This document shows, one piece after another, positions 18,002 to 63,255 of a stretch of DNA of 64,000 nt (its first letter is position 1; every line of letters starts with the position of its first letter). The position numbers and the translations under genes were made by a program. The DNA is taken from positions 1 to 64,000 of the forward strand of contig NZ_DATIND010000052.1 of assembly GCF_035474595.1 (NCBI RefSeq), in the 5' to 3' direction. The stretch is from Longimicrobium sp. (GTDB lineage Bacteria > Gemmatimonadota > Gemmatimonadetes > Longimicrobiales > Longimicrobiaceae). Under the pieces are notes generated by a model, which ran no database searches, had not been told where the DNA came from, and worked only from the letters and a program-made list of their open reading frames with translations.

Positions 18002-18040
18002 GGAGCCCGCGCCGCACGATCGCGACGCGGGCTCCGGCCG
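18002..18040. terminator. Bidirectional terminator between convergent genes
   Basis: The hairpin GGAGCCCGCG/CGCGGGCTCC (18002-18011 and 18026-18035) lies between holA (plus) and the precursor peptide (minus). On the minus strand it is followed by ATTTCTCC. Confidence 0.75.
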
Positions 18041-18050
18041 TTCGGTGCGG

Positions 18051-18329
18051 TTACGAGCAGATGGAGTGCTCGTCCGTCCCTACCGTGCAGTTGTAGTACG
18101 AGGCGGGGCAGCCCACCTCGGCGTAGGTGCCGCAGTAGGAGTTGACGAGCTGGCACGACGCGGGGATGCCGCAGGTCTGCGCGCAGGTGTCGTCGCAGGT
18201 GTAGTGCCCGGCGCAGGTGGCGTCCGCGTCGGTGGCGTGGGCGTGGATGGTGCCTCGCGCGGGAACCTCATGCGCCGTCTCGAACGACTCGACTTCCAGC
18301 TGCTCGACGTGCAGGGTGAGCTTGGCCAT
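18051..18329 (-). CDS. Lanthipeptide-like precursor peptide, pinensin-type leader (peptide 1)
   Basis: This is a 92-residue precursor. AGGAGG lies directly upstream of the ATG at 18329, which fixes the start. The leader MAKLTLHVEQLEVESFETA matches the style of pinensin-family class I lanthipeptide leaders (L-x-VESF-x-T). It is clearly related to the second peptide at 63061-63255 (KLLLSPDELRVESFPTA). A GTIHAHATDA segment follows, then a C-terminal core with nine Cys and many Thr/Ser, including TC, TC, TC and SC pairs. This suggests dehydration of Ser/Thr and thioether or disulfide formation. No lanthionine synthetase, protease or transporter lies nearby, so a remote maturase would be needed. 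An alternative is a Cys-rich exported or metal-binding peptide. Confidence 0.7.
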   Translation of the reverse strand: MAKLTLHVEQLEVESFETAHEVPARGTIHAHATDADATCAGHYTCDDTCAQTCGIPASCQLVNSYCGTYAEVGCPASYYNCTVGTDEHSICS

Positions 18330-18631: not shown

Positions 18632-21208
18632 ATGGCGTCCGAAGACACACCGCTGATGCTGCAGTGGCGCGAGGTGAAGGCGCGCCACCCGGACGCGCTC
18701 GTCTTCTTCCGCGTCGGCGACTTCTACGAGCTTTTCAACGAAGACGCGGTCGAGGGCTCGAAGCTCCTGGACCTGACGCTCACCTCGCGCAACAACGGGG
18801 GGAGCAAGGCGCCGCTGGCCGGCATCCCCGCGCACGCGCTGGAGACGTACCTCCGCCGCCTGGTGGCCGCCGGGCGCCGCGTGGCCATCTGCGACCAGGT
18901 GGAGGACCCGGCGCTGGCCAAGGGCCTGGTCCGCCGCGCGGTGACGGAGATGGTGACGCCCGGCGCCGTCTTCTCCGACAGCCTGCTGGACGCGCGCCGC
19001 AACAACTTCCTGGCGGCGATCGCGGGCGACGCGGCGGGGGAGGGAAGCGTGGGGCTGGCGCTGGGCGATCTGACGACGGGGGAGATGAGCGTGCGGCGGC
19101 TGGCGTGGGAGGAGCTGCCGGACGCGCTCGGCGTCTTCCAGCCCGCCGAGATCCTGCTGCCGCGCACCTGGGAGCTCTTTCCCATCCCCGGAGCGGCGGG
19201 GGTGACGCGGACCTACCGCCCCGACTGGCTGTTCGACGCGCGCGCCGCCGCCGAGGAGCTGGGGCGCCACTTCCGCGTGGCCAACCTGGCCGGCTACGGC
19301 TTCGAGCCGGGCGACGAGCCGCTGGTGGCCGCCTGCGGCGCGCTGGTCGCCTACCTGGCCGAGGTGCAGCCCGCCGGCTTCGGCGGCCTGCGCGCGCCGC
19401 GCATCGAGCGGCCGGGGCACGTGATGGTGCTGGACGAGATGACGCGGCGGAACCTGGAGCTCGTGGAGACGCTGCGCGGCGCGGGGACGCAGGGGACGCT
19501 GCTGAGCGTGCTGGACGAGGCGCAGACGCCCATGGGCGGCCGCCTCCTGCGCCGCTGGCTGCTGGCGCCGCTGGTGGACGTGGCGGCGATCGGCGCGCGG
19601 CTGGACGCGGTCGGCGAGCTGGTGGGCTCCGAGGCCATGCGCCGCGGGGTGCGCGACGCGCTGGGCGAGGTGCGCGACCTGGAGCGGCTGGCGGTGAAGG
19701 TGGGCTCGGGGCGCGCCAACCCGCGCGAGATGCTGGCGCTGGCCGCCTCGCTGGGCCGCATCCCCCTTGTCCGCGACGCGCTGGGCGAGGCGAAGGCGCC
19801 GATGCTGCGCGCGCTGCTGGACGGGCTGGACCCGCTGGACGAGGTGCGCGAGCGCATCGAGTGCACCGTCGCCGCCGACACGCCCGTTTCCGTGGCCGAC
19901 GGCGGGGTGGTGCGCCCGGGGTGCCACGTCGAGCTGGACGAGCTGCGCGAGGTGCGCGACGGCGCGGTGGACTTCATCGCCCGGCTGCAGGCGCGCGAGC
20001 GCGAGCGGACGGGGATCAACACGCTGAAGGTGGGCTTCAACCGCGTCTTCGGGTACTACCTGGAGGTCACGCGCATGAACGCCGAGCGCGTGCCCGCCGA
20101 CTACATGCGCAAGCAGACGCTGGCCAACGCGGAGCGCTACTTCACCCCCGAGCTGAAGGAGTGGGAGGAAAAGGTCCTGGGCGCCGAGGAGAAGATCGTC
20201 GCGCTCGAGGCCCGGCTCTTCGCGGAGCTGCGCGAGGCCGCGGCGGCCGAGGTCCCGCGCATCCAGGCCGTCGCCGAGCGCGTGGCGACGGTGGACGTGC
20301 TGGCCGCGCTGGCCGAGGTGGCCGTGCGGCGCGACTTCGTGCGCCCGGAGGTGGACGGCGGCTTCACGCTGGAGGTGCGCGGCGGCCGGCACCCGGTCGT
20401 GGAGACGATGATGCCGCGCGAGGACTTCATCCCCAACGACGTGCGGCTGGACCAGGACGCGCGGGTGATGATCCTCACCGGGCCCAACATGGCGGGCAAG
20501 TCCACCGTCCTCCGCCAGGTGGGGCTCATCGTCCTCCTGGCGCAGGTCGGCGCCTTCGTTCCCGCGCGCTACGCCCGCGTGGGCATCGTGGACCGCATCT
20601 TCACCCGCGTGGGCGCGTCGGACAATCTCGTCCGCGGGCAGAGCACCTTCATGGTGGAGATGAACGAGACGGCGGCGATCCTGCATGGCGCCACCGCCCG
20701 GTCGCTGGTGCTGCTGGACGAGATCGGCCGCGGCACCTCCACGTGGGACGGGCTCTCGGTGGCCACCGCCACCACCGAGCACCTGCACGAGGCGGTGGGG
20801 GCCAAGACGATCTTCGCCACGCACTACCACGAGATGACGCGGCTTTCCAACCGGTTGCCGGGCGTGGTAAACTTCTCCGTCGCCGTGCGCGAGGTGGGCG
20901 ACGACATCGTCTTCCTCCGCCGACTGGTTCCCGGCGGCGCGGACCGCAGCTACGGCGTGGAGGTGGCGCGGCTGGCGGGGCTGCCGGAATCGGTCGTCGC
21001 CCGCGCGCGGGAGATCCTGCGCGAGCTGGAGACCGCCGCCGCCCCCGCGCCGCCGCAGCCGCGCCACGAGCCGGAGCTGCAGCTCGGCCTCTTCGGGCCA
21101 CCCGTGCATCCGGCGGTGGAGAAGCTCCGCGGCGTGGACGTGAACCGCCTGACGCCGCTGCAGGCGCTGAACCTGCTGGCGGAGCTGAGCGAGAAGGCGC
21201 GGGGCTGA
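18632..21208 (+). CDS. mutS: DNA mismatch repair protein MutS
   Basis: This is an 858-residue mismatch-recognition ATPase. The N-terminal mismatch-binding domain has the FFRVGDFYELFNEDA segment with the Phe-x-Glu reading motif region. The core and clamp domains follow (GFNRVFGYYLEVTRMNAERV). The ATPase domain has Walker A GPNMAGKST (residues 617-625), LLDEIGRGTSTWDGLSVA and FATHYHEMTRL. The length is normal. No MutL gene is seen in the window. Confidence 0.97.
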   Translation: MASEDTPLMLQWREVKARHPDALVFFRVGDFYELFNEDAVEGSKLLDLTLTSRNNGGSKAPLAGIPAHALETYLRRLVAAGRRVAICDQVEDPALAKGLVRRAVTEMVTPGAVFSDSLLDARRNNFLAAIAGDAAGEGSVGLALGDLTTGEMSVRRLAWEELPDALGVFQPAEILLPRTWELFPIPGAAGVTRTYRPDWLFDARAAAEELGRHFRVANLAGYGFEPGDEPLVAACGALVAYLAEVQPAGFGGLRAPRIERPGHVMVLDEMTRRNLELVETLRGAGTQGTLLSVLDEAQTPMGGRLLRRWLLAPLVDVAAIGARLDAVGELVGSEAMRRGVRDALGEVRDLERLAVKVGSGRANPREMLALAASLGRIPLVRDALGEAKAPMLRALLDGLDPLDEVRERIECTVAADTPVSVADGGVVRPGCHVELDELREVRDGAVDFIARLQARERERTGINTLKVGFNRVFGYYLEVTRMNAERVPADYMRKQTLANAERYFTPELKEWEEKVLGAEEKIVALEARLFAELREAAAAEVPRIQAVAERVATVDVLAALAEVAVRRDFVRPEVDGGFTLEVRGGRHPVVETMMPREDFIPNDVRLDQDARVMILTGPNMAGKSTVLRQVGLIVLLAQVGAFVPARYARVGIVDRIFTRVGASDNLVRGQSTFMVEMNETAAILHGATARSLVLLDEIGRGTSTWDGLSVATATTEHLHEAVGAKTIFATHYHEMTRLSNRLPGVVNFSVAVREVGDDIVFLRRLVPGGADRSYGVEVARLAGLPESVVARAREILRELETAAAPAPPQPRHEPELQLGLFGPPVHPAVEKLRGVDVNRLTPLQALNLLAELSEKARG

Positions 21209-63002: not shown

Positions 63003-63040
63003 AGGGCCCGCCGGGATGCGTCCCGGCGGGCCCTTTCGCT
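63003..63040 (+). terminator. Rho-independent terminator
   Basis: There is a perfect 14-bp stem, AGGGCCCGCCGGGA/TCCCGGCGGGCCCT, with a TGCG loop, followed by TTCGCT. It lies between the convergent membrane-protein and precursor-peptide genes. Confidence 0.9.
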
Positions 63041-63060: not shown

Positions 63061-63255
63061 TCAGAGCTCGGCGAGGGTGCAGGTGGGGGCGCCGAACGAA
63101 ACGCACGAGCGCGCGGCGCAGCGCGTTTCCAGCACGCAGGTGTGCCCCTGCGTGGCGAAGTGCCCGCGAACGGTGCCCGGCGCGCCGTCCTGCAGCGCGG
63201 CGGTGGGGAAGCTCTCCACGCGCAGCTCGTCGGGCGACAGCAGCAGCTTCTTCAT
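63061..63255 (-). CDS. Lanthipeptide-like precursor peptide, pinensin-type leader (peptide 2)
   Basis: This is a 64-residue precursor with GGGAGGAG just upstream of the ATG at 63255. The leader KKLLLSPDELRVESFPTA is clearly related to peptide 1 at 18051-18329 (shared KL-L, L-x-VESF-x-TA, then GTV/GTI and a His-Ala-Thr-type junction). The core of about 30 residues has four Cys with Thr and Ser (GHTCVLETRCAARSCVSFGA, PTCTLAEL), fewer than peptide 1. No modifying enzyme or exporter lies within reach of the window. The downstream terminator is shared with the convergent gene. Confidence 0.7.
   Translation of the reverse strand: MKKLLLSPDELRVESFPTAALQDGAPGTVRGHFATQGHTCVLETRCAARSCVSFGAPTCTLAEL

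Follow-up and report, generated by a model that had tools for sequence, protein, structure and literature searches.

The window analysed here is a 64-kb stretch of DNA from Longimicrobium sp., which carries on its minus strand two solitary genes for predicted lanthipeptide precursors, P0001 (18051..18329), encoding 92 residues with 9 Cys and a Cys/Thr-rich core, and P0002 (63061..63255), encoding 64 residues with 4 Cys in the core. These are the two minus-strand open reading frames of the original prediction, with their nine and four Cys, and the GGAGG sites ascribed to them were also found (AGGAGG and GGGAGG upstream of the ATG of P0001 and P0002, respectively). The leaders of P0001 (MAKLTLHVEQLEVESFETAHEVPARGTI; 18246..18329, minus strand, approximately residues 1-28, the cleavage site not being pinned down) and of P0002 (MKKLLLSPDELRVESFPTAALQDGAPGTV; 63169..63255, minus strand) match the leader profile described below with E values of 1.2e-14 and 3.8e-14, respectively, and score 2.9e-14 and 3.2e-13 with a profile built only from the precursors of another species. 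The pattern KL.L....L.VESF.TA...GTI/GTV, previously proposed to be common to the two peptides, was confirmed from their sequences, and it is not due to chance, the control with reversed DNA being empty.

Directly 3' of the P0001 stop codon lies a GC-rich inverted repeat with a 10-bp stem (18002..18035, minus strand), and P0002 is followed by a perfect 13-bp inverted repeat with a 4-nt loop (63004..63033, minus strand), both being probable terminators. A scan for sigma-70 promoters and T-tract terminators at the window gene was empty; the GC-rich hairpins are evident nonetheless. The divergent neighbour of P0001 is mutS (18632..21208, plus strand), which provides a synteny anchor. P0001 and P0002 gave no match in a Pfam search, and their sole match in NCBIfam was the leader_pinensin model NF038180, with 18.2 bits for P0001 and 12.6 bits for P0002 (curated cut-off, 24). 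The same model matches 27 of 58 sampled precursors, with a best value of 2.6e-6 and many leaders below the curated cut-off. By profile comparison, the P0001 and P0002 leaders are related to the pinensin leader, but they are not formal members of NF038180. No LanB or LanC match was detected within the 64-kb window, in agreement with the earlier statement that a maturase is absent nearby.

The two genes belong to a large family. P0001 alone, used as the query against its own genome, yielded 129 matches. A leader profile was built from 60 genes with the strict motif and applied to the 1.19 Mb of DNA surrounding these matches, where 174 precursor genes could be read directly (threshold, at least 11 bits); the identical profile gave 0 matches on the same 1.19 Mb reversed. 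A whole-genome leader-alignment search, in which the best 150 of 347 candidates were scored, added 11 precursors outside the fetched regions, so that at least 185 leader-sharing genes are present in the source genome (6.57 Mb, 163 contigs, 96.9% complete). The latter is a draft with an estimated contamination of approximately 4%, and the precursor count depends on the assembly. The leader consensus is M-[KR]-K-L-x-L-[DN]-x-[DE]-x-L-x-V-[ED]-S-F-x-T-x(n)-G-T-V.

The 174 genes occupy 89 loci on 52 contigs, 56 of them being solitary and the others forming arrays of up to nine genes. An ATG start is found in 170 of the 174, and a Shine-Dalgarno sequence in nearly all; a small number of the precursors are short or carry a weak leader. 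A perfect stem of at least 10 bp within 110 nt downstream accompanies 55% of the precursor loci versus 18% of other called open reading frames and 3% of random places. The best explanation is that each precursor is transcribed as a small unit by itself or belongs to a short array. A common neighbouring gene or mobile element was rejected, since the families found repeatedly next to the scattered loci are limited to generic kinases, acyl-CoA dehydrogenases and genes common to nearby loci, and none is widespread there. A common upstream promoter motif was likewise discarded, as a k-mer search gave no strong k-mer.

A complete class I locus is present on another contig, C23, and comprises on the minus strand LanB, a separate elimination protein (tLanB), LanC with a C-terminal extension, six leader-matching precursors, an ABC exporter and an HlyD protein, as well as an S8 subtilase. 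The elimination protein (Lant_dehydr_C, PF14028, 1.2e-41) is the only one of its kind in the source genome, as is LanC (LANC_like, 2.1e-57) among stand-alone class I cyclases. LanC residues H248, C333, C380 and H381, corresponding to the zinc ligands and the catalytic His, are invariant in 8 homologues. No peptidase domain was recognised in the ABC exporter; the subtilase has all of the catalytic D, H and S motifs and is 62% identical to its relative in genome G009. Lant_dehydr_N was matched at 3.2e-37 on contig C4 and at 2.4e-13 on C23, in the latter case at the end of the gene. LanB of the source genome (G000) is incomplete, being cut by contig ends; in G008 and G009 the open frame has its full length. 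The two LanB fragments (L044:9998-12373 at the end of C4, and L038:16217-17704 at the end of C23) are 86% identical in DNA sequence over their overlap, and that on C4 ends within an Ala/Pro-rich linker; whether they reflect a true duplication or a strain mixture is unresolved. A piece resembling the C-terminal half of the S8 protease of the cluster was also seen in G008 downstream of mutS (L140:4134-4436), and was not found in the window.

The C-terminal extension is in frame with LanC and was modelled with a pLDDT of 85.5. Its best structural match is TglI (E 2.5e-6), followed, with weaker E-values and high probability, by the leader-bound RRE TbiB1, PqqD and lasso B1; a weak, sub-threshold NCBIfam match to the RRE protein HvfC was also obtained. 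From the resemblance of the model to TglI and RRE structures, along with the weak HvfC match, it is inferred that LanC is fused to an RRE-like domain, the binding of the leader being an inference only. The predicted fold is like that of TglI, TbiB1 and PqqD; it differs from TglI and other RREs in being fused to a LanC cyclase, with a sequence identity below 20%.

The criteria for a class I lanthipeptide system, namely LanB domains, a LanC with its ligands and a precursor combining a leader with a Ser/Thr/Cys core, are met at the sequence level. LanC of the source genome is closest to the C-domains of LanM enzymes. A split LanB and a LanM-like LanC have been reported for the pinensin family (PMC7268733), so that the source genome shares with pinensin both of these features and a related leader. 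It differs from pinensin-type loci in the great diversity of the cores, and in that the window leaders fall below the NF038180 cut-off. The Elizabethkingia and Chryseobacterium loci exhibit the same leader motif, but with one precursor beside the enzymes, as opposed to the at least 185 scattered here. The original prediction had anticipated further leader homologues, a remote LanB/LanC set and a resemblance to pinensin-type class I lanthipeptides: the at least 185 leader-bearing genes and the C23 locus bear out the former two, and the NF038180 matches, split LanB and LanM-like LanC support the latter.

The distribution of the leader among genomes links it to the class I enzymes. Across 61 relatives, the leader family (E <1e-7) and Lant_dehydr_C are both present in the same 10 genomes and both absent in the other 51; limited to the 21 genomes of the family of the source organism, the probability of such a ten-on-ten match by chance is about 1 in 350,000, not corrected for phylogeny. 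Precursors are missing from three genomes of the same genus that lack Lant_dehydr_C (G003-G005). Relatives whose contigs are long enough to show it keep the order LanB-tLanB-LanC-precursors-ABC-HlyD. Among 395 genomes of the phylum, the leader (E <=1e-6) was found only in the family of the source organism and in two genomes with a single precursor, which in both adjoins LanB, tLanB and LanC. Similarly, one or two precursors of the leader type adjoin the enzyme set in Melioribacter, Ignavibacteriales, Gemmatimonadaceae, Elizabethkingia and Chryseobacterium. Since outside the family there are only one or two precursors, next to the enzymes, one enzyme set ordinarily has one or two substrates; the expansion is specific to this family.

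The cores have a median length of 41 residues with 6 Cys (174 precursors), many of them carrying 6-19 Cys. Cys accounts for 14.6% of core residues versus 0.3% of leader residues, and Ser and Thr together equal or outnumber Cys in 168 of the 174. In the nearest relative (G008; MutS identity, 92%) there are at least 200 precursors in 93 loci, and a syntenic precursor locus was identified there for 25 of the 89 loci. At seven loci of the source genome both flanks are kept in G008 and the precursor is absent. These include the P0001 site, where the holA-mutS gap of G008 is 369 bp long and empty; no precursor was found at the mutS site in the relatives examined, and a recognisable P0001 homologue lies elsewhere in the G008 genome. 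According to these comparisons, insertion sites turn over between species.

In 60 ortholog pairs, most of them outside the maturation locus, omega was 0.38 for the core (CI 0.33-0.44) versus 0.51 for the leader (CI 0.45-0.57), and 360 of 374 Cys columns of the core (96%) were kept. These pairs were chosen at a core identity of at least 0.6, which favours conserved cores; in 36 syntenic pairs taken without identity selection, the values were 0.45 and 0.51 for core and leader, respectively. Within arrays, pooled omega was 0.48 for the leader and 0.63 for the core. Positive selection on the cores is unsupported, pooled omega being below 1 both within arrays and between species, with the caveat that high GC3 may depress synonymous rates. 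Since orthologous cores keep 96% of their Cys with a core omega of about 0.38, the genes are taken to form a library that is maintained, not a collection of hypervariable junk. The predicted library is diverse within a genome, yet conserved peptide by peptide between species. Thus, of the earlier description of the substrates as hypervariable, the diversity of cores within the genome stands, and the term is incorrect when applied to their evolution. In-locus precursors of two species (L038:11032-11196 and L129:18399) also share HSCLRTACCPDTFQPGCTG as an identical stretch of the core, with leaders that are less similar, as if some products were strongly constrained.

Taken together, P0001 and P0002 are very probably precursors of class I, pinensin-type lanthipeptides belonging to a one-leader library of at least 185 members, with their modification in trans being inferred from sequence relations. 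In the proposed mechanism, the RRE-like domain(s) would bind the leader through the L.V[ED]SF.T motif; LanB, by glutamylation, and the elimination protein would dehydrate Ser and Thr residues of the core; LanC would join Cys to the dehydrated residues forming thioether rings; the protease would cut off the leader; and the ABC/HlyD pair would export the products. The library may have grown by array duplication and dispersal, with turnover of single insertion sites between species. The broader proposal, which we regard as likely, if with somewhat less assurance, is that one class I machine with a cyclase-fused RRE matures approximately 200 scattered substrates per cell, that this is the largest such library known, that it is under purifying selection across species, and that it evolved, within a single Gemmatimonadota family, out of an ordinary cluster having one enzyme and one substrate.

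Other explanations need to be considered. The peptides might be unmodified, Cys-rich secreted products, metal-binding or structural and linked by disulfides, with the leader acting as a secretion or targeting tag; the 6-19 Cys of many cores would suit this reading, and mass data that could contradict it are absent. It is nevertheless judged very unlikely, because the precursors coincide exactly with the class I elimination-domain gene across the 61 genomes, the same leader is found inside LanB/LanC loci of several relatives and of other phyla and matches the pinensin leader model, and this leader, charged and with a conserved ESF.T, is unlike a signal peptide. Slightly less credible still is that only the in-locus precursors are true substrates, the scattered ones being decaying duplicates: empty sites in the nearest relative, and the few short or weak-leadered precursors, could be read in this way, but decay is difficult to reconcile with the nearly universal ATG and Shine-Dalgarno sequences, the enrichment of terminators after precursor loci, and the retention of Cys and low core omega in orthologs that mostly lie outside the locus.

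The least probable alternative assigns the scattered precursors to another modifying system. The source genome does encode two LanM enzymes (C136 and C25) and one class III synthetase (C87), so that a different enzyme, including an unrecognised one, cannot be excluded for some precursors. However, both in relatives and in other phyla the VESF leader is found next to class I enzymes, and genomes without PF14028 are also without the leader family. The LanM on C25 was rejected as the enzyme of the library since it has its own precursor with a nitrile-hydratase-like leader. The two genes lie in a low-GC island (L039:6420-10370, approximately 26.4-30.4 kb on C25) that looks recently acquired and is unrelated to the VESF leader family. 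The further LanM lies at L041:297-3545 (C136) and the class III synthetase, which is RamC/LanKC-like, at L042:5598-8411 (C87).

With prochlorosins, one promiscuous class II enzyme serves tens of substrates. To our knowledge, their purpose has not been established. Prochlorosin and synechococsin precursors share one leader, have varied cores and are scattered or in tandem, with one remote enzyme, and the largest stated case is SyncM, a class II enzyme with 79 substrates (PMC10783134). The source genome resembles them in having one enzyme set and many scattered precursors with a common leader, action on all of them being inferred. ProcM and SyncM are, however, class II LanM enzymes acting on at most 79 precursors with a Nif11 leader and a GG site, whereas the source genome has class I LanB, tLanB and LanC, a different leader, an S8 protease and at least 185 precursors. 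Thus, the system is prochlorosin-like in its working but is not a prochlorosin, because its enzymes are of class I and its leader is pinensin-like. For Longimicrobium terrae three lanthipeptide-type clusters have been listed in a paper that does not speak of a scattered library (PMC7291104), and a published description of such a scattered class I library was not found in the open literature, most subscription journals not being covered.

The library described here, of class I and more than double the size of its class II counterparts, comes from a phylum that has barely been cultured and would mean that the same evolutionary solution was invented independently. With the empty sites and the ortholog data, the growth of such libraries and the forces that retain each peptide become open to study, and the system readily offers diverse ringed peptides as well as naturally tolerant LanB and LanC enzymes for engineering. 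Since most precursor loci are far from any enzyme, genome mining based on clusters would miss most of the library.

Further class I genes were observed in relatives. In G009, Lant_dehydr_C matches a 1287-residue LanB-like open frame (L127, G009:C9:156542-157312); the 20 kb examined around it contain no precursor with the VESF leader, and the gene may belong to a second class I system. The core of the sole leader-type precursor of G006 (L134:14241, G006:C30, minus strand) is repetitive and (S/T)C-rich, and contains CSSCTSCTSCSGCSGC; this precursor adjoins a LanB locus of a second, divergent kind, which is also found in G008:C98 and G020:C45.
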